The position numbers and the translations under genes are program-made. The notes below the pieces were generated by a model. That model was not told the origin of the DNA. It searched no databases and saw only the letters and a program-made list of their open reading frames with translations. A DNA stretch of 64,000 bases from Dryococelus australis. Its lineage: Eukaryota; Arthropoda; Insecta; Phasmatodea; Phasmatidae. The number at the start of each line of letters is the position of its first letter. Position 1 is the first letter of the stretch. Positions 4,201-64,000 of the stretch are shown here, piece after piece. The stretch is from the NCBI GenBank assembly GCA_029891345.1, contig CM057009.1, forward strand, positions 212,592,709 through 212,656,708, in the 5' to 3' direction.

Positions 4201-5057
4201 TGGCCGCGGACGGTGTAAGAGGGAGTATACAAATTAGGGCATGATGCATTGACGAATAACAGTACGTAGTATTTTTGTTGGTTTAAGAAAAAAATTTATT
4301 ATTGCATGCTCTTATATCTTGTACATTCATTTAAAATTCTTCCACGAGCCACCAATTTGATTAAACTATAATACAAACAACATTATGATAATGCACCTAT
4401 TTGGGATAGTTGCAAGACTGCTGCACTGGCATATGTCATCTGCCATCCAGGGGCCCAGATAAAATACATGTTTCTATGGGTGCAACGCAAAATCTGCACT
4501 TGTGTTGCACCAGAATGGAATTAAATTAGAACAAACAGAGATGCAAGCAGTTGCGCACCAATGCAAAATCCAGAGAAATCTCCTCCCAGGCAGATACCTC
4601 GGCTCAAGTGCAATTGCTCTCTCTGCACAGTCGCAGTCGACACATGTAGCTAATGAGCAACATGACTATCATTTTGTAATTGTCACAAAATACGATTTGG
4701 ATAATTGGTGGCATTGGCAAATTGTGTAAATTTCTACATTAGAGTGATTTCAACAAGAAATTGAAATTTAAAAAATGACATTTGTGTTTGGGTGTACAGA
4801 CATTCAGGTGGAGCATGCTTGATTATTACATGTACAGCAGCATCCAATTACTTTACGACACATGAATATTCTGGCTTTGTTTTGATGACACTCAAAAATC
4901 ACAAGTTGTTTTTTTTTTAACAATATCACACAGTAAATTGAATTACAGGTAGAATAGATAAAGGGGGTTTTCTGAGAGTGCTTCTGACTTAACTTTTCAC
5001 ATACAACACTTTTATTTCCATCAAAATAGTCCAAAAATATAATTTTGTTGAGGTACT

Positions 5058-6753
5058 TGACGTGGACCATGTCCCCTGGCCCTAAGTCCATTCACCAAAC
5101 TGCCATCTAGCATCTGAATACAGTCATATCTGCACTGAATCTGGGTGTTGTAACCGAAGCCACCATCCCGCGTGTGTGCACATATGTGTACTGTGCAGTG
5201 CGGTTTAGTGTAAAATGTTGTGTATTTTACTTTATAGGTAAATATTGTTTAAATTCAGTGAGTGCATCGCACATATCTATCACCCATTCGGTATAGTGCA
5301 CCTGTTGCGTTATTTTTATTCTGCAGTGCTTGTTATGTTATTAATTGATATGTTGTGTTCCAGTGCAAGTGTCATGCCATGTGTTGTATTATTAATATTG
5401 TCCCATTGCAACCTTACTTACATGTAAGTACAGAGGCAAATCGGCTAGAAATATTTTAAGGTGCAATGTTTTGTTTCAGTAATGTTTTATTTTAGTTGAG
5501 TGTTATTATTATAACAGGTGTAATAAAACCTATGCGCTCCATGAGCCACATATTTAGTACACTTGTTTATGGACTTACATAATACGTAAACAAACTGTAC
5601 CAGCGCAGAGTGCCAATATTAATAGGATATTATTAGGATATAAATCACATGACAAACACATCGCATTAATAAACTGTCAACCATAACCTAAAAGGAGCAT
5701 ACTGAAATACTGGCCAATGCCAGTAATACTAACCGTTCGACCATCGAACCAACCGATGCATATGTTGCACTCGACCACATGGCCGGAAAAGTAAGAAATA
5801 TAATAAGTTTTGTTGTGTGTGTCCCAAGGGTTTGTAGTTAGTTATAAAATGTTTTGACCTTAATGTTATGCATATTCAAATATACAATTAATGAATTCAA
5901 AGTGTATATAAATATCCGGTGAAAGCAGGTACAAAAGTGAGGTTAGATTGCCACGGAATTACAGCGGTTGAACATGTAATTTTGTTTTGGTAATTGTTAC
6001 ACATAACATTTTTGCTTCATAAGGAATAATGTACTAGTGATTACATTCCATTGGCCCTCTGGACAGATATCAATTGATTTTTCATTTTAAATATACATAT
6101 TAAATCCTGTAAATTGATGTGTTGGTGGCAGTCGCAGCCAATGAGAGGGACCCATGCCCAATTCTTATTAGTCTGGTACTCGTCTTCATGTGAGGTCGCA
6201 GCTGTGCCGCGGAGCTCCGGGCAATTCAACTTTTTAATACCAATCATATTTAATTTCCGTCTTGTAACATGCTTTCATTGGTACTGTTTATCGTCTAGCT
6301 AGCCCAGAGTCAGTGCCACCTCACAACTCGCTCCGTATTGCAAACAGCCAGGACGTCAAATGCACCATAAGTTCATGTAGGCCTACGACCATTTTACAGC
6401 TTCCGAGTCATCCTTGCTTTAATGGTGATCTTGTAATTTCAGTGATCCGTGTTGATAGAAACATTTTAATAAGCCTACGTGACAGAATACCGGCATATTT
6501 ATTTATTCCAGCTGCATCCTGGCTGCTTATTGCAACCTTTTCACTTGAGAAATCACGTGAGTAATTCATGGCATTGGAAGGACAGAATAGTTCATTTCAA
6601 AGTGTGTATTGGCAACTGGAGGAGGCCAACAGCTCCCACTAGGTCGAGGCACAACTTGATACAGCACAACAGACTTTGTCGCAGCTTGGGAGTCAGCATG
6701 GTAACCACTTCATTGCCCTCTCTTTTATACAGGCGGAGTCACCACTAGGGAGG
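5058..6753 (+). repeat. LTR A, outer 5' LTR, 3'-truncated
   Basis: It starts TGACGTGGACCATGTCCCC, close to the starts of LTRs B, C and G, and aligns with B and C along its length. Shared landmarks include GTGTAAAATGTTGTGTATTTT near 5210 and TTCATGTAGGCCTAC near 6370. The match stops near 6753, about 130 bp short of the LTR end defined by LTR C, where the sequence passes directly into the 3' internal remnant. The end of the LTR, the primer site and the 5' internal region are therefore deleted at this junction. Confidence 0.7.
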
Positions 6754-8326
6754 TCTGCGAGTGAGAACGGGCCAACTCCAGCAGCACCATGGAATACTGC
6801 AGTGTACTGTGTGACACTGATGTCATTATCATGTCTGCGCATCCATGCAGGTAATGCCCAGTGACAAGGTACCACTTGCACTGAGGATGCTGGAGCCAGA
6901 AATGCAAGAGTATCAACAAGAGAGACAATGTGACACAGTGCGGCATTGAAAGTATAAGTGTGGCGCCCATGCTGCCATCTCTAATGTGTGCGGTCATGAC
7001 CAACCGACCGAAAACAACACTTGCTCGTTCGAGCGATCTCATTGCCATACGACCCGTCGTGGGTGAAACCAAAACACGCAGTATTGTGTTTCTACACAGG
7101 GTGGACAGAAACTGCCCAGGAGATCCAGAACACGGTTCGTGCACAAAGCATGTGCAACAAATACAACCACCACCATGCTAACAACAAACATGCCGGCAGT
7201 TAGGCAAGTTAGTTTGACATATTGCACGTGAAAACTGTGAATTAAGAATGCTGTGTTTAATGTGTAAACATTGCTCCCAAACCACATGGCCACAGCATAC
7301 ATGTCCGCACGTGAAAATTAAGCAGGATTCCAGGCCACCAAGGAGTCACATCAGTGTGTAAACTTTTGACAGTTCAACAAGTGACATTCCATTCCCGGAA
7401 TAAAAATCTTTGTTTCAACACCATTCACACCTGCTGTTTTGAAGTTGACAACATGTGCAATTCTGCCGCATGTATTTGTTTACATTTGGCCCAAGTTCAT
7501 CAACTTGCTATGCAGCAGAGGAGGGGTGGATAGTCACCCTTACTTCCCCTCTTTCTTCTGAGCCTTCACTTCTCACCATCTTTTCATTACAGTGCATCGG
7601 GTGGAAGAACTTCACCCTCCTCCCTGCAATCGTCATCATTACGCCGAATATAACAATGCCATGTGTGGAGTTGTTGCGTCGCCCATGCAACAGCACGTCC
7701 TTCATTATTATTGTTTCATCATTTGTAAAAATAGAGATGATGTTGAACCCCGTGCGACACTCCTGAGACTCTCGACATATGAATGTCAACAAGGGATCTA
7801 GCAGGGAATACACTGAGGAAGTACAACATCTGTTCACTGGACATTTTATTTTGTTCTGGCGGCTCTCCATAGTGGGCCAACAAAAGACAGCTTAACTCGC
7901 CAGGCGATGGTCCCACCCACATGTGTCGTGATGCTATGGTGCTGCCTACCATTCTTTGGGTGTCTGCTGCAGTTAGGCCATTGCTTCACGATGGAATGCC
8001 TGTGTTCCTAAACTGCTTCACCCACATTTTTCAGCAGTGTTTGCGGATCAGGGGTGGAAGAGCTCTTCTCCCCTCCCCCACACTCTCATTGATTTTGTAT
8101 CATCAGTCGTGCCGCGTGCACAGCTTGCGTGCTGCAGTGGAATGCCCAACGCAGCTGTCACAACATGGCTGGCAATGCAGGAGCAACACCAGCAGCACTA
8201 CCCACTTTCAACTCAGCGTGCCTACAACTTACGACCGTGAAGGCAGTTACGCCTGCCCCGGCGGTGTTGCATTGAAGAAGATAGATGATTTCGAGTGAAC
8301 AGCCTCAAAAAGAAGAAGGGAGTGTA
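6754..8326 (+). pseudogene. Gypsy internal remnant 1 (distal Pol tail, polypurine tract)
   Basis: This 1.57 kb segment matches 11365-12960. Near its 3' end one frame reads STQRAYNLRP (about 8205-8240). A YNLRPR-like motif is a common ending of Gypsy Pol proteins and also occurs near the end of the plus-strand element at about 20190. The purine tract at 8307-8322 lies just before LTR B. The upstream frames are interrupted by stops. No protease, RT or integrase motif remains, so it represents the region between integrase and the 3' LTR. Confidence 0.6.
8307..8322 (+). other. Polypurine tract before LTR B
   Basis: AAAAAGAAGAAGGGAG lies four bases before the TGAAGTGGACC start of LTR B. Retroelements prime plus-strand DNA synthesis from such a tract. 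Confidence 0.65.
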
Positions 8327-10136
8327 TGAAGTGGACCACGTCTGTTTATCACGCCACAATTTAGCATCTGCTACAATAATATCTGCATTGTGTGTGGGCA
8401 TTTTAGCAGAAGCCACCGTCCGGCGAGTGTGCCTGTGTCGGTACCATGCTGTGCAGTTTAATGTAAAATGTTGTGTATTTTACTTTAAAGGTAAATATTG
8501 TTTAATTTCAGTGAGTATGTCGCACATAACTACCACCTGTGCGATATAGTAAACCTGTTGTGCTTGTTTAGAATCTGAAGGGCTTGTTGTGTTATTAAGA
8601 GTTGTGTTGTGTTCCAGTACAAGTGTCCAGCCATGTGTAGTATTATTATTATTGTCCTCTTGCAACCTTGCCTACATGTAAGTACAGAGGCAAATAGTCT
8701 AGATATATTTTACAATGCAAAATGTTTTATTAATATTTTATTTTAGTTGAGTGTTATTATTATGTCACATCATAAATTCTATGCATTCCGCGCGCCATCT
8801 ATTTTGGACACTTGGTTATAGTCTTACATAATATGTAAACAAACTATGCCAGCAGAGTGAAAATATTAATTGGAGATTATTAGTATACAAATTACATGAC
8901 AAACACATCACAATAATAAACTGCCAAACGTAACCTAATAGGATAGTACTGAAGTACTGGCCAATAGTCATAATGAATGTTCCTCTCTCGAAACAACTGG
9001 TGCACATGGTGCCATCGACCACATGGCCAGAAAATAAGAAATGTAATGTTTTGTAGTATGTGTTCTACAGGATTGTATTTAGTTATAAAATGTTTTGACA
9101 TTAATTTTATGTATTTTTAAATAGACAATTAAGTTCGGGAGGAGTTCCGGTGAGTATAAACGGCCTGTAAAAGCCAGTACAAAAAACATGTTTTTTTTTT
9201 GCCACGGAATTACAGTGTTTGAATATGTATTTTTATTTCTGTAATTTTACATGTATCATTTTTGATTCGTAAGGAAGTATGTATTAGTAATAACATTCCA
9301 TCAGCCCTCTGGCCAGACATACTATTAAATTTTTCATTTTTAATATAATTATTAAATCACCACATGATATGTTGCCGGAAGTTGCAGCCAATGAGAGGGC
9401 CTCAGGCCCAATGCTAGTTAGTCTGGTACTCGTCTTCACGTGAGGTGGCCGTTGTGCTGCGGGGCTCCGAGCAATTCAACTTTTTAATACCAGTCATATT
9501 TAATTTCTGTCTTGAAGCGAAATTTTATTGGAACTGTTTATCGTCTTACTAGCCCAGAGTCAGCGCCACTTCACAACCAGGTCCATATTGTACATGGCCA
9601 GGACATCAATTGCACCATAAGTTCATGAAGGCCTACAGCCATTTTACAGCTTCGGAGCCTGCCTTGCTTTAACTGCGATCTTGTAATTTCAGTGATCTGT
9701 GTTGAGAAAAATATTTAAATTAATTTATGTAACGGAATACCAGCGTATTTATTTATCGCAGACACATCCCGGCTGCTTATTAAAACTTTTCACTTGAGAA
9801 ACCACGAGAGTAATTCATTGCGTTGGGAGGCCAGAACAGCCCATTTCAAAATGCGTATTGGCGTCTGGAGTAGGCCGACAGCCCCCACTTCACGAGGCAC
9901 AACTGGATATAGCACAACGGAGATTGTCGTAGAACTGGGATGCAGCATGGTAACCACTTGATTGCCCCCTCTTTTATAGAGGCGGAGTGATTACCGGCAA
10001 GGCCACATGGGCTGTCGGTGTACACGACCCCAACTTGTTCTCGTGCTCGCTAGCACTGGCACCCATCCCCGGATTTCCTAATGAAAAACCATATTTTCCT
10101 GTAATTTCCCCCTGGAGACCGACTCAACCACCAAAA
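8327..10136 (+). repeat. LTR B, middle LTR of the array
   Basis: It starts TGAAGTGGACCACGTC after a polypurine tract and aligns with LTR C to about 10136. It carries the conserved late block CTGGCACCCATCCCCGG near 10050. The segment AAAATGTTGTGTATTTTAC near 8465 is shared with LTR A and deleted in C. A candidate tRNA primer site, TGGCTTGGCGTTCTG, begins at 10138, two bases past the inferred end; I could not assign the tRNA. Confidence 0.7.
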
Positions 10137-12960
10137 ATGGCTTGGCGTTCTGTGTGGCTTTACATACCGCCACTTTGACTTATGTCAAATGGCTTGCACT
10201 TCCATGTGGATTGTGCATACCGCCATGTTCGTCGCGTCTTCAGCGGACAAGTGAATCCAGGTTCCCGTATCATTTCAATAATTTCCTTGTATTTTAGGGT
10301 CTTTCCTCATTCCTAATAATTGTTTATGTTTTGTGCGCCACATGAGATCACGTGTTCTTATGTTTCCTGTCCTTTAAGCCCTGGCTCAACATTTTCTGCT
10401 ACTGTTGGTAATATATAATGTGCTAATTCCAGTTGGAGTCATAATGTCAAGAAATATCGATGAGAAAATCATCATAAAACCAACCATGTGTTACTTCGCG
10501 CCAAAATTGCAGTTTTCCCTTGGGACAATGCAAGTCGGACATCTTGGAACAGAACTTCACGAGTAGCATCAGACAACATCCGCCATCTTGGCACCAGCAG
10601 AGGGGAAGTGCGTCACCTGTCGCCCCCTTCCTTCTACGCAGCATCAAGCCAGCAGTAACCACCCCTCCTGTGCTGTGCTCCACTGGGTGTAGTTGCGCGC
10701 CAAGCGACGACGTGGTTGGGTGAGGAGGATCAAGAACATGTGACTACTGCGCCATATTGATCAGAACATCCGTGTCCCAAAACTCATACAATGGGCTCTA
10801 AGTTCGATGAACGGACCGTGATTGTCCACAGTGTGGCAAGTTAAAATGAATGTGAATCCTTATGGGGCACACTTCCATCTGCAGCTGATCATCTGTCCCC
10901 ACTCTATCAGCCCCAGCATGCCGGGAAAAACGATACCAATATACCGCTCGAAGGACATATGCCCTGGGATGGGAGCCTGCATCGTACATTGCCGATGGTG
11001 TTAATACTATTTCCAAGTGTAGTGCGCAATTGCAGAAATCGGGGAAACACCGGATATAAACAACGGGCATTTCCTGTGCAACATATATGTATATCTACTG
11101 TGAAACTGGCATTTCTCGCATCACGTCTTTTCACATCTGCATTCAACTCCACTGCCGCCCTGCTTCTGAATCAGCGTGAAGTATGTGCGGTCACTCATCC
11201 ACGAAATGGACAAGGACCAGAATCCATTACCTCTACACCGAGTGAAAATCTACATTCTCTGCTAAAAATATATCTGAACAGCAACCTGCAACAACTGTCA
11301 GCCATGCCCACATTAAGATGTAAACAATGAGCCATGCGGCCAGCCGGCCCAACCATTACCAGCCTCAGCTGCCATGCCTGCGAGCGAGAACGGGTTAACT
11401 CCAGACTCCAGCAGCACCTCGGAATACTGCAGCGGTCTGAGGGACACCAATGCCATCATCATGTCTGCGCATACATGCAGATACTGCCCAGTAACAAGGT
11501 ACCACTGGCAGAGTGGGTGCCGGAGCTGGACACGCAAGATTCTCAACAAGAGAGATGCAGTCAAGGACAGCATTGAAAGTATAAGTGCGACGCCCATGCT
11601 GCCATCTCTAGTGTGTGCAGTCAGGACCGACCAACCGAAAACAACACTCGCTCGTTCGAGCAATCTCATTGCCATACCACCTGTTGCGGGTGAAACAAAG
11701 CATGCCATATTGTGTTTGTACATAGTGTGGAATGAAACAGCCCAGGAAGTCCAGTACACGGTTTGTGTGCAAAGCAAGTGCAATGGATACAACCACCACC
11801 ACAATGACAACAAACATGCCGCCAGTTAGGCATGTCAGTTCGACATATTGCATGTGAACACTGAGAATCAAGAACACTGTGTTTGGTGTGTAAACATTGC
11901 TACCCTCCCACATGGCCACAGCACACGTGTCCTAGCATGAAAATTAAGCAGGGTCCCAGGCCACCAAGATATCGCATCAGTGCATAAACTTTTGACAGTT
12001 CAAACAGTTACATTCCATTCCCGGGAAAAGAACCTTCATATCAACACCATTCAAACTTACTGTTTCGGAGTTGACAGCACATGCAATTCAGCTGCATTTG
12101 TTTACATTCGGCCCAAGTTCATCGATTTGCTATGCAGCAGAGTAGGTGTGGCCAGTCGCCCCTACTTCCCCTCTTTCTTATGTACCTTCACTTTTCCACG
12201 TCTTTTCATCATGGTGTGTCTTGCAGAAGAACTTCACCCTCCTCCCTTCACCATGCATCATCACTCCGAATGTAACAATGCCATGTGCAGTGTTGCTGCA
12301 TTGTCCATGCAATAGCACAAACTTCATTATCATTTTTTATCATTTGTAAACAAGGTGATGGAGTTACACCCCGTGCGACATTTCTGCTCGACATCTATAT
12401 GTCAACAAGGGATCCAGCGCGGGTACACCGAGGATGGGTATACTTCTGTTCGCTGGACATTTCTTTTGTTTCAGTAGCTCCCCGCAGTTACAGAAACAAA
12501 CTAGGCAGGCCACCTGAAGAAGGCATAGCTCTCCAGGTGATGGTCCTATGCACATGTATCGTGATGCTATGGTGACGCAGGCCATTCTTTGGGTGTCTGC
12601 AGCAGTTATGCCATTGTTTCAAGATGGTACGCCTGCATGCCTTAATTGCTCCATCCATATTTTTTGTAGCAGCGGTAGTGGGTCAGGGATACAAGAGCTA
12701 TCCTCCCCTCCCCCATGCAATCATTTATTTTGTCTCATCTGTCGTGTCATATGCACAAATTGTAGGCTGCAGTGGAGTGTCTAATGCAGAAGTCACAACA
12801 CGGCCAGCCACGCGGGAGCAACATCAGCAGTCTCACCTACTTTCACCTCAGCATGCCTACAACCTGTGTCTGTGGAGGCAGTTATGCCAGCCACGGCGGT
12901 GTTGCAGTAAAGAAGACAGTTGATGTCTAGTGAACTGCCTCAAAAAAGGGAGGGGGCTTA
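10137..12960 (+). pseudogene. Gypsy internal remnant 2
   Basis: The segment lies between LTR B and the polypurine tract of LTR C. The first part (10137-11364) has no counterpart in remnant 1 and may hold the leader and a decayed gag start, but I recognise no Gag core. The second part (11365-12960) matches remnant 1. It includes a 151-codon frame at 11374-11829 and the degraded tail motif AYNLC near 12855. AAAAAAGGGAGGGGG at 12942-12956 is the polypurine tract. RT, RNase H and integrase are absent, so it is a deletion derivative. Confidence 0.6.
12942..12956 (+). other. Polypurine tract before LTR C
   Basis: AAAAAAGGGAGGGGG is followed by CTTA and then TGATGTTGACC, the start of LTR C. Placement relative to the LTR is the same as at LTR B. 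Confidence 0.65.
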
Positions 12961-14590
12961 TGATGTTGACCGCATCCCCTGGCACTAAGTCCGTTCACCA
13001 TGCCGCCATCTAGTATCCGCCACAGTCATCACTGCACAGAGTGTTGGCATTGTAGCCGAAGCTACCATCCCGTGTGTGTGCACGAGTGTGTACCATGCTG
13101 TGCAGTTTAGTGTAAACGAAGCAAACCATCTCGATATAATTTAACATGCAATGTTTTGTTTTAATAATATTTTATTTTAGTTGTATGTTATTATTATGTC
13201 ACTTATGTCACATGTTATAAAGCCCACGTGCTCCACACGCCATCTGTTTGGGACACTTGGTTATGGACTTACATAATATGTAAACAAACTATACCAGCTG
13301 AGTGCCAATATTAATTGGAGATTACTAGCATATGAATTACATGAAAAAACGTCGCAATAGTAAACTGCCAACAATAATCTAAACGGACAGTACTGAAATA
13401 CTGGCTAATGCCAGTAATACTGAATGTTCCATTCTCTAACCAACCGGTGAACATGATGCACTCGACCACGTGGCCGGAAAATAAGAACTGTAATAAGTTT
13501 TGTGTGTGTGTTTGCCAGGAGTTTGTAATTAGTTCTAAAATGTTTTGACACTAATTTTATGCATATTAAAATATACAATTAAGAACGGCATGAGACGAAG
13601 TGAATATAAACGGCCAGTGAAAGCTGGTTCAAAAGTGAGGTTATATTGCCATTAAATAATTACAGCGGTTGAACACATTTTTTTTTTTTTTTTTTTTAAT
13701 AATCCTTACCCATATAATTTTTGATTCATAAGGAAGTATGTATTAGTGATTACATTCCATCGGCCTTCTGGCAAGATGTATCAATTCATATTTCATTGTT
13801 AATATATTTATTAAATCATGTCTAGTGATATGTTGGTGGTAGTCGCAGCCAATGAGAGGGCCGGCCCAATGCTAGTTAGTCTGCTACTCGTCTTCACGTG
13901 AGGTGGCTGCCTCGCTGCGAGGATCCGGGCAATTCACCGTTTAACACCAATCATATTTAATTTCTGTCTTGTAACATAATTCTTTTGGAACCGTTTATTG
14001 TCTTGCAAGCCCAGAGTCAGCACCACCTCACATCCAGTTCCCGATTGTGCACGGCCAGGACGCCAATCGCATCGTAAGTTCATGTAGGCTTACTGCAATT
14101 TTATAGCTTCAGAGCCCACCTTACTTTAACAGCGATCTTGTAATTTCAATGCTCTGTGTAGAGGAACGTTTAAATAAATCTACATGGTGGAATACCGGCA
14201 TATTTATTTATTCCAGCCACGTCCTGGCTGCATATCGTAACCTTTTAACTTGAGAAACCACATAAGTAATTCAGGACGTTGGGAGGCCAGAACAGCACAT
14301 TTCAAAATGTGTATTGGCATCTGGGGAGGCCAATAGACCCCACTAGGTCGAGGCACAACTTGATATAGCACAACAGAGATCTTCGAAGCATTGGGAGTCA
14401 GCATGATAACCACTTGGTTGCACCCTCCTTTATACAGGTCGAGTGACTACCAGGGAGGCTACTTGTGCTGTCAGCCTACATGACCCCAATTTGTTCTCAT
14501 GCTCGCTAACACTGGAGCCCATTCCGGATTTCCTACTAAGAACCATCTTTTCCTGTAATTTCTCCTTGGAGTCCGACTCGTCCACCCACA
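12961..14590 (+). repeat. LTR C, outer 3' LTR
   Basis: It starts TGATGTTGACCGCATCCCC and ends CCACCCACA. TACT follows directly and matches the bases before LTR A. It is about 200 bp shorter than A and B because a segment after GTGCAGTTTAGTGTAAA is missing. A poly-T run of about 20 occurs near 13679. The conserved late block CTGGAGCCCATTCCGG lies near 14512. Confidence 0.75.
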
Positions 14591-14594
14591 TACT

Positions 14595-15430
14595 TAAAAT
14601 TTTTTGCTTCATATTTTGGAGTGGGATTTGTTATTGAAACATAAAAGAGTGGTCATTTACTGTCGAAGGGTACGGCGACGATTCGTGATAAAAATGTTAA
14701 TGTCATGTCATGTCTGTGAATGTAACATAAACTCTAAACACCTTACATAAACCTAAATATTCAACTTGAGCACTGCACACATAGTAATTGCAGAGAAAAT
14801 ATCAGCCATATGGAAATTCGTAGTGAACTGAAAAAATGCCGTGAAGAATAGCATATTTTCTAAACAAAAAAAGGAATTAAACACAATATTAGGTTGGTTA
14901 CACTTCGAACACAGTCACAAATTGTATTAACACTTGTAATATGATGTCGTCCATGCCCCTAGCCCTTGGCTCGCCATGTATGCTTCACAGCAGGCATCAG
15001 AAGTGTACTGAGCCTTGTGTGCACCGGGTATAGCAGTGTGTTTTTAAGAGGATATTTTGTGTAATTTTGTATTCTCCATTTTCACGTGTTTCTTCCCCAT
15101 TTCATTTCACGCAGTGTCTGTTATGTTTATTAAAGATGTTTTGTTAGAGTAAATTAGTTCACGTGTTGAAATCAGTAAGGTAAGAGGAGAAAGTGTCATG
15201 TGTATTGTTTGTACGGTGTAAGAAAGGCATTCCCGCTGCCGGTTTGCCCACCTTCGATGGCTGACACGAAGCATGGTGCCTACAGTCAGTTCTTCGTGTC
15301 TCGAGAATGTGGTCATGCGGACTGACATCATCGCAGTTTTGCGCGCCAAGATGGCCAGCAACTTTTTGTACCGATTATGTTAATTGCAATAGCTTAAATC
15401 ATTCGGAATTTTTTTCATCTGCCTCCCAGG
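14595..15430. other. No gene seen
   Basis: The stretch between the three-LTR array and the next recognisable repeat shows no conserved reading frame. I also found no match to LTR H, so the 5' LTR of the following element is not visible here. Confidence 0.45.
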
Positions 15431-20273: not shown

Positions 20274-21925
20274 TAACGTGTTCCTGATGTCAAAGTATCC
20301 CTTGTTCCCGTTTATTCCATCGCATTTGCATTAACCACATAGCAACACTCGACCGATCGACATTACGCCTCGGTCTCGATCAGTACAAGTCGACAAGAAT
20401 GTCGTTTACACTTTTCTTGCCAACCTGTAACTCGTGACCGTGGGTCATAATATTTAACATTCATCACAAGAGTTAACTCTTGTGATGAATAGACATGTGG
20501 CCTAAATGAGTGTGTCCTGTGAAGTCACGTCCGTTAGATGCAACAGTCATTGGAGGGAACACTGGGATAATTGGAGCTACTTATTCCCACAGCTTTCCGA
20601 TGTGCGCGATGTCGATGGGCCCCGTCGCCGAATCCAGAATGCGACGTGGCTCCAAGTAGTGTCAAAACATGGGGAATCACATTCCTGCAGGAAGTGTGAA
20701 GTGGCAAGCAGCTGCCTAGCCGCATTAATTAATAGGAGAATTGTTAGGCATTTTTAGTGGTGATTGCACCACAATTAACTAGGAAAACCTCCCACTCCAG
20801 CATAGAGAGTACATAACATACCATAGAAGCTCCACCCTTAGTGACGAAATCAGTGTGTCACCGCATCCATACATATTCCTTTATTATAACCATTACGACA
20901 CTCGCCGATCTTAATATGTCAATTATAAGAGTGTACATGTAATCATCTATCGAGTATCAGCCACCCTTCAAGTGCAGTGACATACTCGTGACGTCACATT
21001 CTTAGACATATCTGGGGCTAAGGCGTTCATGAGTATGTCGCCAATGTGTTTTTATTTAATAATCATAATAATGTACTATGTCAGTTTAATTTATCGTGTT
21101 AATTAATAGTTTCCATTTTTTTATGTTTTCATATTTGGCACCGGATTCGCCGGACGTGCGGCGAAGCCGACACCATGTCGTTCGTCAGACTTCAGCACTC
21201 CAACCAACCGACAGGGCAGACGGTAAGCTCCGTGTACCACTCTCGGAAATTCTATTTAGGCTGCATTTCTTTTCATCACAATAGTTAATGTAATTCAAGT
21301 ACATTTAAGTAATTTTATTTAGCCGACTGGAGGTCCCTCTGCATCCTTTTGTAGCATACCAGGACTTCATGTGCGAGAAGTGTTTTTACATAACTCTAAC
21401 TTCAGGCCTATGCCTTACTTTCCACATTATTGGTCATCGGCAGGTTCAGAGTGCCGGGTCCACTTAACCTAGGGTAAGCATTTTCATATGCAGCGACATT
21501 TCATTGTATCTTTGCGGTAATAAAAGAGTCATACTATAATTAGGCGTGCTTTTTGTATTATCTCTCCAGAGTTCATCGGGTACTGCACCTTCACAGCACC
21601 AACTTTATAAGTGTCTTTTTTTTTTACGGGGCCTGTCTCCCTCAGAGTAAATTCAGTGATAATATAGGTGTCCGAAGTGGCCAACAGCTTCGCCCCAAAT
21701 GAAGGAAATATTTTACATGCAAGATAATTTAACTGACAATTAAATTAGATCTCCTTCATATTGATCGCGTATCCAGAGTCGCCATAGGCTGTCGGCCGTA
21801 CGACCCCATTCAACATAATTTACTCTACCGAATGTGGTGCTGGGCACATCATCAGTTGCTGTTCTCCACGTGCTGCCAGGTGGGATACAAACACATCCCA
21901 GCACCTCTGGAGGCGCACTACATCA
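20274..21925 (+). repeat. LTR H, 3' LTR of the gag-integrase element
   Basis: It matches the minus-strand LTR I (60378-62072) end to end; the start TAACGTGTTCCTGATGTC is a decayed version of TGACATGTTCCTGATGTCC. It follows the Pol tail and polypurine tract, so it is a 3' LTR. Internal landmarks include an ATCACAAGAGTTAACTCTTG hairpin near 20462 and AATAAAAGAGTC near 21520. The end ACTACATCA is inferred by alignment with LTR I. I found no matching 5' LTR upstream. Confidence 0.65.
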
Positions 21926-31059: not shown

Positions 31060-32060
31060 GACATAGATTTCCTTGGCAAGAGGTCACATCTGTAGTACAG
31101 TCTTCTGCTCTTCGCAGGCTTATATTTGTTAATGTAAATTTTGCATGTATTTTTAAGAGGCAAACCCAACATATACATAGGAAATTGAGTGTAAAGGCAG
31201 GTAGCTGATTGATAAAGTATGATTTTATTGAGTACGCATGAACTACGGAAGTATCTATTTGAAATAAATGGAAAAATGTTTGCCTTCACTACACTGCATG
31301 TATGTACGATATGTAGGCCTACAAATATATTATTACATTGATTGAATTTGAGATTGGACATAATATAATGCATTTACACCTACGTTTTACTACACATGAC
31401 AAATCTGCAGTACACGTTTTGCACCCATTCGACTTTGTTTTGAATTGGAAAAGTTAACGAGGGCCCAGTTAAAGGTGTCGTACAGGGGCGACATGATATT
31501 CATATTTATTCATATTCGGACACTGGGCGTTTCTAAATTGCACATGAATATCGTCAATGTTATTATCAACAAACGATCACAATTTCAGAAAGTTCAATTC
31601 TGGTTAGTGATGAAAGCTAAACCGAATCTTTAAAACATAGAAATAATGTTGTACGTAAAACATAAAAAAATTCTATTAAAGTAGAAAAATTGGGGATGGC
31701 CTTATAGACTGTAGTAAATGTAGGCCCAGTGTTGTTTTTTGAGAGCAAAACGATTTTACACAGAATATACATTACGTTTAGGGAATATTTATTTAGTGCC
31801 TTAACAAGAGAACAATTTCATTTTAAAAATTCATCATTAACCTAACATATTATTTTTATAAGGAATTTAATATATAAATGCTTGACGAAAGCTACTTAAA
31901 TATATGTAACAAGTCTAAAACATTACCCAAGCAGATAAAATATGAAACAATTTACATTCTGACTAGTAAAAACAACTCAGGCCTCTATGGAACATAGCTA
32001 TTTTTGCTATGAAAAATAACACTTGGCACTGATATTTAATAAAAACAACATCGCAAAACA
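31060..32060 (+). repeat. About 1 kb repeat shared with the window's right end
   Basis: This stretch matches 63007-64000 in the same orientation. Long shared runs include GGTAGCTGATTGATAAA near 31199 and AAATTGCACATGAATATCGT near 31533, the latter identical in both. The matching copy continues past the edge of the window. The repeat is non-coding and probably the 3' half of the candidate transposon. Confidence 0.65.
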
Positions 32061-34043: not shown

Positions 34044-34861
34044 CTAGTTCCCTTCCTGATCGACTATGTGGTCTAGAAAATTGATACTGTTTTTACCCAC
34101 ATGGCATTTCTCAATCGAGCATGTGAGGCCATTGATTGCAAGCCTCTCCAGGACTACTGCCAAAATATATGTGTTCCTCCCAGCTGTTTGACCAAACAAT
34201 GATGTCATCGAGATATATGCCAGCGTATACTCTCCAATAATGTCATCCAACACATGTACCATCATTGCCTGGAATATCGCAGGTGCACATTTCAAACCAA
34301 ATGGCATCACACAAAGTTGAAAATGCCAGCCGTCTGGGGCCATGAATGCTTTTTTCAGCCTGTCTTCGAGTTTCACCGGCACCTGAAAATATCTGCTTTT
34401 CAAATCCAAGGATATCCAAACTTTTGCCTGCCCTAATGTACTCAGTGCCTCCTTCACACTTATATTTGGTGGAAGTGCGCTGCATTTTACTTGATTCAGC
34501 AATCTAAAGTCTACACATAATTGCCACGTTCCATATTTCTATGGAGATAATCGCAAAGTTGAATGGACTGTCTGTCAGTTCTATCACACCATCATCAAGC
34601 ATCTCCTGGATTTTGTTTGATTATCCACATTTGGTGCGGTAAATAACCTTGCAGGCTAGTGTGGACTGGTTTTTCGTCTACAAGTGGTATCGAGTGTTCA
34701 ATAATGGTTCTGCATTTCAACGCATCATTTCTACCGAATACATCATGGTATTCGTCAAGGACGAGCTGCAATATGGCCAGGTACTTACACGGGACCTGGT
34801 TGTCGAAATCTTCTAACTTTACTTCAAGTAGGTTACCCGTCAGACAGCAGTCCAGAAGCAT
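34044..34861 (-). pseudogene. Element X: reverse transcriptase
   Basis: In order on the minus strand: an N-terminal linker (DEYHDVFGRNDALKC, about 34740), EMLDDGVIELTDSPFN near 34570, then VWISLDLKSRYFQVPVKLED (about 34400) with the first catalytic Asp and VMPFGLKCAPAIFQAMM (about 34290). The YLDD box is present in the DNA near 34200, but in a shifted frame: a duplicated TA dinucleotide just before it takes the frame out, and a second change about 50 bp on brings it back. A further break lies between 34503 and 34595. Confidence 0.75.
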
Positions 34862-60377: not shown

Positions 60378-62072
60378 TGAAATGTTGTGCCTCCATAGGT
60401 GTTGGGATGTGTTTGTGTCCCTTCTGGGAGCAGGTGGAGAACAGCAACTGGTGAGGTGCCTAGCACCACGTTTGGTAGAGTAAATTATGTTGAATGTAAT
60501 CGTACGGCCGACGGCCTACGGCGACTCTGGATACATGGTTAATATGAAGGAGAGCTAATTTAATTGTCAGCGAAATTATGTTGAATGGAAAATATTTCCT
60601 TTTGGGTGAAGCTGTCGGCCACTTCGCACGCCTATGTCATCACTGAATTTACTCTGCTTGAGGGAGGCAGGCCCCGTAAATGAAAAACATACACTGAAAA
60701 ATATTTAAAGTTGATGCTGCTATGAGGGCGCAGGACCCTATGAACTCAGGAGAGTTAATGCAATAAAACACGTCTAATTATGGTGTGACTGTTTTATTAT
60801 CGCAAAGGTGCAATTAAATTTGGCTGCACATGAAAATGCGTACCCTTGGTGAAGCGGACCTGGCACTCTGGACCAGCTGGTGGTCAGTACTGTGGAAAGA
60901 AAGCCATAGGCCTTAAGTTAGAGTTACGTAAAAACACGTCTCGCATGTGAAGTCCATGTATGCTACTTCAGGATGCAGAGAGACCTCCCCTCGGCTAACT
61001 AAAAGTACTTAAATGTTCTTGAATTACATTAACTATTGCAATAAAAGAAAATGTAGCCTAGATTGAATTACCAAGGGGGTACACAGAGCTTACTGTCTGC
61101 CCTGCCGGTTGTCTGGAGAGCAGAAGTCTGACTAACGACATGGCGTCGGCTTCGCCGCATGTCCGGCGAATCCTGCAGCAAATGAAAACATGAAAAAACG
61201 GAAATTAATGATTAATGTGATCAAAGAAACTGACATAGTACATAATAAGAATTATTAAACTAAAACACATTAGTGACATACTTGTGAATGCCAGAGCTTC
61301 AGATATGGCTAACAATGTGATATCACGAGTATGTCACCGCACTTGAAGGGTGATATTAAATGAAATGATGTCTCAGGTGGCTGATTATCGATAAATGATT
61401 TCATGTACACTCTTATAATTAACATGTTAAATTTGGCATGTGTCGTAATGGCTATAATTAAAGGAATGCGTATAGATGTAACGAAACACGGATTTCGTTA
61501 CTAGGGGCGGAGTTACACCCTGTTTTCTATGATATGTATTCGACTCGCTATACTGGAGCAGGCGGTTTCCCTAGTTAATTGTGTTACAATCACCACTAAC
61601 AATGCCTAAAAATACTCCTATGTGTGTGGGGAGCCGCTCGCCACTTTATACTTCCTGCGGGAATGTGATTACCCGTCTTTTGACACTACTTGGAGCGACA
61701 TCGCACTCTGGATTCGGCCACAGGGGACGACGACATCGCGCACATCGGAAATCTGTGGTAATATGTGGAGCTGCTTATCCCAGGGTTCCCTCCAATGACT
61801 GTTGCATCTAACGTTCGTGAATTCACGGGACACGCTCATTTAGGCCACATATCTATTCATCACGAAAGTTACCTCTTGTGATAAATGTCAAATATTATGA
61901 CCCAGGGCCACGAGTTACAAGGTAGCAAGAAAAGTGTAAACGCATTTCTTGTCAACCTGCACTGATCGAGACCGCGACCTAATGTCGATCGGTCGAGTGT
62001 TGCTGTGTGAAATAATGCATCTGTGATGGAACAAACAGGCACAAGGGATATGTGGACATCAGGAACATGTCA
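60378..62072 (-). mobile_element. Solo LTR I with CTAC target duplication
   Basis: On the minus strand it runs from TGACATGTTCCTGATGTCC to ACATTTCA, 1695 bp, with CTAC (plus strand) at 60374-60377 and 62073-62076. It is an inverted, full-length relative of LTR H (20274-21925). Shared landmarks include the CGGCCGTACGA block (about 60505) and the CATCACGAAAG..CTTTCGTG-type region near 61860. No coding sequence lies inside. Confidence 0.75.
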
Positions 62073-62695: not shown

Positions 62696-64000
62696 GGGCC
62701 AGTTTCAAAAACACATCTTAATTTAAGCACTACTTAAACATTGAATAAGCTGTCCCTCGTGCCTTGTGCCATTTCACCAACTTTAAGCTCTTCTTAAAAT
62801 GTTTTAAGCAGCTCTTAGTATTTGCAACAGAAATCGGATGCCTAACTTAAATCATTGTAAACAAATAAAGAGGAAAATGGTTGCTACTGAAACAGTTGTG
62901 TGTAGATAAACCCAAATGTGTTTTAAAGTATTGTTTTATAAATTAAATTTTTTTATAAATAAAAATAAGAAATAATTGTGTATCAAAGTTATTGAGTCTG
63001 GGTGCAAGTCTTCATTTGTGGAAATAACCTATGACGATGGTCGAAAACAAAACTTGTGGAAGGCATATATTTGTTTATGTACATTTTCCACATATTTTCA
63101 AGAAGCAAATCCAATATATACATAGTAAATTGAGTGTAAAGGTAGGTAGCTGATTGATAAAATATGATTTTATTGAGTATGCATAAGCTACAGAAGTACC
63201 TATTTGACATAAAGGGAAAAATGTTTTCCTTCACTACACTGCATGCATGTACGATATGTAGGCCTAAAAATATATGATTACTTTGATTTAATTTGAGACT
63301 GGACATAATATTATCCATTCACACATTCATTTTACTACACATGACAAATGTGCAGTACAAGGTTTGCACACATTCGACTTTGTTTTGAAATAGAAAATTT
63401 AACGAGGACCCAATTAAAGATTTCACACAGGTGTGACATGATAATCATATTTATTCAAATTCGAGCACTGGGCGTTTCTAAATTGCACATGAATATCGTC
63501 AATGTTATTATCAAAAAACTGTCACAATTCCAGAAAGTTCAATTATGGTTAGTGATGAAAGCCAAACCGAATCTTTAAAACATAGCAGTAATGTCGTGCG
63601 CAAAACAAAACAATTCATTTATGTCGAAAAATTCGGGATGGCCTTGTAGACTGTAGTAAATATAGTCCCAGTGTTTTCTTGAAGGCAATACAATTTTTAC
63701 ACAGAATATACATTACAATTAGGGAATATTTAATTAGTGCCTATACAAGACAACAGTTTCATTTTTAAAATCCATCATTAATCTAATGTATTATATTTAT
63801 AAAGCATTTAATATATAAATCCTTGAAGAAAGCTAATTAAATATATAAATATATATAACGAGTCCAAAACATTACCCGAGTAGATAAAATATAAAACAAT
63901 TAACATTCTGACAAGTAAAATACAGCACAGGCCTAATATAGACCGTAACTTATGCTGCGAAAAAACACACTTCTTGGCACTTATAATTAATAAAAACTAT
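62696..64000 (+). mobile_element. Second copy of the candidate DNA transposon, right part outside the window
   Basis: The left end GGGCCAGTTTCAAAAACAC at 62696 pairs in sequence with the right end of the first copy (32579). TTAAGCACTACTTAA-type repeats follow. From about 63007 the sequence matches 31060-32060 to the end of the window. Only about 310 bp lies between the end and the shared part, so this copy lacks the exon-bearing left half of the first and is probably a non-autonomous deletion derivative. Confidence 0.45.

Follow-up and report, generated by a model that had tools for sequence, protein, structure and literature searches.

Sequence comparison points to doubling of a LARD-like LTR retrotransposon at or soon after a single insertion in the stick insect Dryococelus australis

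Three LTRs and two internal regions, all in direct repeat, lie between one pair of TACT tetranucleotides in the window, a 64,000-nucleotide stretch of D. australis DNA (assembly GCA_029891345.1, contig CM057009.1). Is this block the product of one insertion, and if so, when and by what route was the element doubled? Tandem LTR elements with a common middle LTR are already published, from rice and, as HERV-K, from humans, and the present case is a new, old, insect member. For the rice tandems, the published account leaves the choice between complex insertion and later recombination undecided; SNPs analysed in the flanks did not yield a sequence of events (PMC11899658).

Results

Structure of the block

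Alignment bore out a preliminary description made from the sequence alone: three LTR copies in direct repeat and two internal copies occupy the positions assigned to them there (Table 1). The block reads LTR-int-LTR-int-LTR in a single orientation, and LTR B is joined directly to a polypurine tract (PPT) at the left and to a leader at the right, with no host DNA or extra target-site duplication (TSD), which is the arrangement of a three-LTR tandem. As also described earlier, PPTs precede B and C; the upstream neighbour of LTR A is the host repeat, with no PPT of that kind. The approximately 218 bp absent from C are common to A and B, and B is without approximately 15 bp close to its 5' end. 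In a genome search that took in the leader, most matches started at query position 46 or beyond, with four starting earlier (2, 9, 29 and 29).

Table 1. Features of the tandem block and its surroundings (positions in the window).
Feature	Position	Strand	Evidence or remark
Host repeat, left part (insertion target)	4447..5057	.	39 other scored loci (794 first-look candidates)
Tandem block LTR-int-LTR-int-LTR	5054-14594 (TSDs included)	one orientation	
Left TSD, TACT	5054..5057	+	other copies put the LTR 5' edge at 5058; empty sites
LTR A (5' LTR), without 3' ~132 bp	5058..6753	+	alignment with B and C
int1, 3' ~1.57 kb of internal region	6754..8326	+	80.1% identity to 11365-12960, 1556 columns
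PPT 5' of LTR B	8307..8322	+	sequence reading; position fits other copies
LTR B, shared middle LTR	8327..10135	+	3' end precise to ~1 base
int2, ~2.8-kb non-coding interior usual for family	10136..12960	+	layout as in other genomic copies
Leader (PBS-side) segment, ~52 bp, two in a row	10136..10240	+	most other copies match from second only
PPT 5' of LTR C	12942..12956	+	sequence reading
LTR C (3' LTR), private ~218-bp deletion at 13116/13117	12961..14590	+	alignment
Right TSD, TACT	14591..14594	+	other copies put the LTR 3' edge at 14590; empty sites
Host repeat, right part	14591..14942	.	paralogs found

Three junctions had been proposed, of which the changes at 6753/6754 and approximately 10135/10136 are real, while 11365 is no rearrangement junction: the surrounding sequence is kept in 10/10 other aligned internal copies, one of which, L057, is without approximately 35 bp just before this point, and int2 itself is without approximately 15 bp just after it. 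The view that both interiors are remnants of large deletions had to be abandoned, as int2 is laid out like copies elsewhere in the genome, LTR-int5-int3-LTR. Large deletion is confined to int1 and the end of LTR A and is explained by one event of approximately 1.37 kb, which took the LTR A end together with the first ~1.24 kb of int1. It is likely that the tandem formed first and that the deletion followed.

A putative non-autonomous family

When 10 ORF pieces of LTR A, int1 and int2 were scanned against Pfam, no match rose above the cut-off (four weak ones fell below it), and a coding remnant was rejected on these pieces. The window as a whole had no Rfam match at the gathering threshold and no tRNA. 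The element shows no coding function at the sequence level, the non-coding status of the family being read from those 10 window pieces only. The TG...CA LTRs, short TSD and PPT that a Ty3/gypsy-like LTR retrotransposon would have are all present. Such elements also encode RT and integrase, with integrase in last place; neither was seen for this family in the pieces scanned. Leaders after the LTR mostly start with AATGGC or a variant; a leader stretch at L004 resembles a Lys-tRNA PBS, and other leaders read TGGCTTGCCC, for which we could name no matching tRNA.

Large retrotransposon derivatives (LARDs) have long LTRs, a conserved non-coding interior and an interior 3' end common to a coding relative; TRIM/Cassandra elements are far smaller than the element studied here. 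The stick-insect family shows the LARD features, with LTRs of approximately 1.8 kb and an interior of approximately 2.8 kb, in a copy that here is tandem. The long interior is conserved in many copies (178 and 130 first-look candidates), and 14 of 64 pooled loci extend over more than 2 kb. Six loci with the same PPT-LTR start were fetched and pieces of four of them scanned, which revealed Pfam rve integrase cores at L081 and L083, ~1.2 kb upstream of the PPT. Among the six, L082 and L083 share the terminal ~115-140 bp of the family's interior at 69-73%, and L080 and L081 share shorter stretches of it (37 bp and 35 bp). The element appears to be a non-autonomous, LARD-like LTR retrotransposon, of a kind that an autonomous partner would mobilise in trans.

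A single integration site

Because the LTR edges in other genomic copies fall at the TG of 5058 and the CA of 14590, the TACT tetranucleotides lie outside the LTRs, as previously claimed, and they are a true TSD. The left and right parts of the host repeat were directly joined, with a single copy of the 4 bp, in 16/16 fetched paralogous empty sites. Among 10 family LTRs that could be located at both ends and had no interior next to them, an exact 4-bp duplication was present at 3 and missing from 7. The corresponding place reads TGTA in B and CTTA in C, which raised the question of whether TACT is a degenerate LTR end; this reading was rejected, LTR homology beginning at TG.

Copies within the block were also compared with those elsewhere in the genome. 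The three LTRs were separated as a group from 24 other LTR copies (SH-aLRT 99.3/bootstrap 100), and int1 and int2 from 21 other internal copies (98.3/99). The claim that the whole block occupies one integration site is upheld by the single-copy empty sites, by these two exclusive groups and by the PPT-B-leader arrangement, and a single insertion whose two units share the middle LTR is very probably the correct reading.

An assembly artefact is conceivable in a repetitive genome sequenced with noisy long reads, with more than 1 Gb absent from the assembly according to the genome paper (PMC10268593). However, the units differ at approximately 20% of bases, the same paper gives a read N50 of 35 kb once reads of 20 kb or less were removed, and the TSD and paralogous empty sites are consistent with insertion; we regard an artefact as practically negligible.

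Timing of the doubling

When the LTRs and interiors were aligned, as the preliminary description had proposed, all parts proved about equally diverged (K2P 0.22-0.24). Over 1437 shared columns, K2P was 0.238 for A-B, 0.216 for A-C and 0.232 for B-C, and int1-int2 gave 0.235 over 1556 columns. The ratio of int1-int2 to A-C was 1.09 (bootstrap 95% 0.925-1.301), as was that of the mean of A-B and B-C to A-C (0.970-1.235). Since the LTRs and interiors group apart and are about equally diverged, the tandem formed at about insertion time; judged by these distances, and given rate assumptions, doubling occurred at or soon after insertion, while the LTRs were still identical, to a resolution of roughly 6-7% of element age. 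Taking an insect rate near 3e-9 per site per generation, a K2P of 0.23 would correspond, as a rough figure, to tens of millions of generations.

Late unequal crossover between the LTRs of an element already in place is a known route, and the second tandem locus described below resembles it. It predicts that int1-int2 should be younger than A-C and that B should be a mosaic of C on the left and A on the right, neither of which was seen: 127/235 informative columns of B were in the expected order, and 1018/2000 shuffles did as well. A delay of more than ~6-7% of element age, moreover, falls outside the bootstrap ranges. B lies further from A at its 5' end than elsewhere, the first 123 columns of A-B being more diverged than the rest (5/500 shuffles as strong) in the direction predicted by late exchange; this excess looks specific to B, because it also appears in B-C (42/500 shuffles). 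With about equal divergences and no chimera, late crossover was set aside as highly improbable. The absence of a chimera in B is expected of early exchange and of a tandem preformed before integration alike.

A second tandem locus

Tandems account for 2 of the 64 pooled internal-bearing loci. At the other, L061, the second LTR differs by 18.7% left and 11.6% right of a break (0/1000 shuffles as strong), a signal that was weak when the break was tested within the LTR alone (42/1000 shuffles); no third LTR was found there. The pattern looks like that expected of LTR-LTR exchange, later than the doubling at 5054-14594. A junction search yielded no second middle LTR among 40 scored candidates, and it also missed the L061 tandem.

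Discussion

In the history we propose, a LARD-like element integrated once into a dispersed host repeat, giving the 4-bp TACT duplication that the empty sites reveal. At or soon after integration, its identical LTRs would have given rise to LTR-int-LTR-int-LTR with a common middle LTR, most likely through an unequal exchange that paired the 5' LTR of one chromatid with the 3' LTR of its sister or homologue and whose reciprocal product is a solo LTR. The parts would later have decayed to approximately 20% difference, with the ~1.37-kb deletion of the LTR A end and 5' int1 and smaller private deletions in B and C. We give early unequal exchange an even chance of being the route.

Alternatively, the tandem may have been preformed, either by recombination of two cDNAs or by reverse transcription of a read-through transcript of a one-LTR circle, with integrase then inserting the three-LTR molecule in a single event. 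This route is consistent with the similar divergence of every part, the single TSD and a non-chimeric B, and it has been proposed for the rice tandems (PMC11899658), but early post-integration exchange explains the same data, and tandems are as few as counted above; we consider preformation a plausible route at somewhat under even probability. An element already present could instead have received a second copy, through Ty1-like cDNA recombination or nested insertion, and integrase-independent tandem formation in yeast is cited in the rice study (PMC11899658). However, because A/B/C and int1/int2 each group exclusively, donor and target would need to have been near-identical, and the block contains neither an extra TSD nor host DNA. 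Nested or independent insertions were set aside on the exclusive groups and the lack of an inner TSD, and a second-copy origin is accordingly unlikely.

The stick-insect block can be set beside published tandems. Rice TLI1 and TLI2 likewise have three LTRs, two interiors, a common middle LTR and one short TSD, and their authors read each as a single insertion (PMC11899658). The 28 selected rice tandems are reported to carry protein-domain regions, many being polymorphic, whereas the stick-insect block is non-coding; identity is ~99% for TLI2 and, for TLI1, 85-89% between LTRs and 94% between interiors (PMC11899658), compared with ~80% in both here. The HERV-K(HML-2) tandem provirus at 7p22.1 also has three LTRs around two interiors but is described as a coding retrovirus of which people carry both single- and tandem-copy alleles (PMC11807958), unlike the old, non-coding element studied here. 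TRIM/Cassandra elements are likewise non-autonomous LTR elements reported in tandem, those being from plants (PMC7215508, PMC4528315). A literature search for Drosophila tandem LTRs gave nothing directly on point; one report deals, in its account, mostly with hAT MITE tandems (PMC12368964).

An old tandem offers a further handle on route, through outer-LTR versus interior divergence and through whether the middle LTR is a mosaic. A non-coding LTR element may, with a likelihood short of one half, have entered this site already in three-LTR form; in that case, old star-like tandems would record tandem cDNA, or one-LTR-circle RNA, as usable integrase substrates. The repeats of the D. australis genome are reported to be mostly unidentifiable by similarity (PMC10268593), and a non-coding LTR family is now described among them. 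Within this one family, doubling appears to have occurred at insertion time at the 5054-14594 block and seemingly later at L061.

A single insertion with a shared middle LTR

The preliminary description read the tandem block as one insertion flanked by a target-site duplication (TSD), TACT; the three LTRs (A, B, C) and two interiors (int1, int2) lie where it placed them. Homology of other genomic LTRs to the block begins at TG 5058 and stops at CA 14590. Both flanks are parts of the same dispersed host repeat. From 39 other scored left-flank loci, 16 were fetched: 15 chosen because the left-flank match extended to the final base, and L064, added with a nearly complete match and the right flank next to it. 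In all 16 paralogs the right flank follows directly after the left with a single copy of the 4-mer (TGCT in 13, TACT in 2, TCCT in 1), and at each a one-copy alignment outscored a two-copy one by 8-9 points. The two copies in the window share the A variant (TACT), as expected of a true duplication. The refuting condition set beforehand, an empty site in a related genome lacking TACT between the flanks, is answered here with paralogous sites from D. australis itself. Among 10 LTRs whose two ends were both located and which lacked an adjacent interior, exact 4-bp duplications flanked three (L005, L013, L030; chance expectation, 10/256); flanking 4-mers agreed at three of four bases in two (L015, L022) and differed in five (L009, L011, L012, L016, L029), some of the misses having poorly placed ends. 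L029 has an interior scrap ~400 bp upstream of its LTR.

Features of the window and a second tandem
Feature	Position	Strand	Remark
Tandem block	5058-14590		LTR A, int1, LTR B, int2, LTR C
TACT	5054-5057; 14591-14594		TSD
Host repeat	4447-5057; 14591-14942		Abundant, unclassified; 794 and 1016 first-look candidates for two 800-bp flanks
Leader duplication	10136-10240		In int2; ~52-bp PBS-side leader segment twice in tandem
Inverted repeat pairs	20336-21917; 60386-62009		82-87% complementary, ~38-41 kb apart
Direct repeat pair	31116-31905; 63061-63846		Two pieces, 88% identical, ~32 kb apart
Open stretch	34044-34538	-	Pfam RVT_1, E 9.1e-18; portion of another retroelement
Second tandem (L061, L062)	C2:160353900-160368899		LTR, interior, LTR, second int5

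Origin and timing of the doubling

In a tree with 24 of 27 non-window LTR loci (L021, L022 and L027 excluded), A, B and C stood apart from the other copies (SH-aLRT/bootstrap support 99.3/100), with support for their internal branching order only 33/76. Likewise, int1 and int2 stood apart (98.3/99) from 21 of 28 non-window interior loci (L053, L054 and L056-L060 excluded). A, B and C are 80-81% identical to one another and 68-81% identical to other LTRs, the closest being L025 and L023, both partial copies.

The divergence comparison proposed in the preliminary description gave K2P values of 0.216-0.238: 0.238 for A-B, 0.216 for A-C and 0.232 for B-C over 1437 three-way columns, and 0.235 for int1-int2 over 1556 columns. 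Private differences (A, 121; B, 138; C, 114) are distributed along the LTR. Let f be the share of the element's age that passed between insertion and tandem formation; int1-int2/A-C should then equal 1-f, and mean(A-B, B-C)/A-C should be about 1-f/2. The former ratio, which presumes equal LTR and interior rates, was 1.09 (lower 95% limit 0.925); the latter, free of that assumption, was also 1.09 (lower limit 0.970). From these limits, the delay from insertion to tandem was at most about 0.06-0.075 of element age. LTR B showed no sign of a mosaic with C on the left and A on the right: the expected pattern held at 127 of 235 informative columns, a score reached in 1018 of 2000 shuffles. Divergence of B from A (5/500 shuffles as strong) and from C (42/500) is higher over its first ~120 columns.

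LTR A lacks 132 bp at its 3' end, stopping at the equivalent of 14458 in C, and int1 begins at ~11377 of int2; a single ~1.37-kb deletion would therefore explain both losses, and we infer that it postdates tandem formation. C has a private deletion of ~218 bp, and B has one of ~15 bp.

Of 64 interior-bearing loci pooled from the interior searches, 3 span >3.5 kb. Two are tandem; the third, C17:21554073, is taken to hold one interior interrupted by a gap of ~1 kb. At the second tandem, where no third LTR was found, K2P was 0.193 between LTRs (1335 columns) and 0.123 between int5 copies (797 columns), and divergence breaks within the second LTR (0/1000 shuffles as strong over LTR plus int5; 42/1000 for the LTR alone). 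The lower int5 divergence and the break would fit later unequal exchange, the second LTR being seemingly chimeric; rate differences are possible.

The family and its coding relatives

int2, previously taken for a deletion remnant, is instead the family's ordinary interior, since the series LTR, int5, int3, LTR (5' and 3' interior parts) recurs with continuous interiors in several copies (e.g. L036, L049, L052), and sequence around 11365, formerly called a junction, is found in 10/10 other interior copies aligned. The pieces of int2 scanned gave no Pfam match above cut-off. First-look candidates, which are not exact counts, numbered 643 for the LTR versus 178 and 130 for two interior parts, suggesting many solo LTRs.

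A search with the polypurine tract (PPT)-LTR start returned 80 sites (reversed control, 0). Six were fetched and pieces from four scanned, revealing a Pfam integrase core ~1.2 kb 5' of the PPT in L081 and L083. Both are integrase-coding relatives that share this PPT-LTR start, and ~1 kb separates core from PPT. L082 and L083 match the family at 69-73% over the final ~115-140 bp of the interior, L080 and L081 over just 35-37 bp; L079 and L084, also among the six, gave no match to the interior end. Integrase cores upstream of the same PPT-LTR start and a shared interior end suggest that this is a non-autonomous family derived from an integrase-coding element, likely Ty3/gypsy going by the position of integrase near the 3' end.

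Chromosomal location and known tandems

The assembly searched (3,415,067,245 bases, 646 contigs) seems to lack small scaffolds of the published version, reported as 3,421,391,311 bases in 1,879 scaffolds, with scaffold N50 262,277,254 bases and L50 5 (PMC10268593). Going by that L50 and the lengths seen, the window's contig C17 (326.6 Mb) is the fourth-longest. As the X chromosome is reported as Scaffold_4 (PMC10268593), the locus is probably X-linked, provided scaffold names follow size.

Among open-licence papers, queries that did not name the family found no published description of this locus or family. Like the D. australis block, tandem LTR elements in rice have a common middle LTR and a single TSD, their mechanism being left undecided by the authors (PMC11899658); human HERV-K loci also have a common middle LTR (PMC11807958). 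Tandem LTR elements are thus already known as a kind, to which the D. australis block adds another case.
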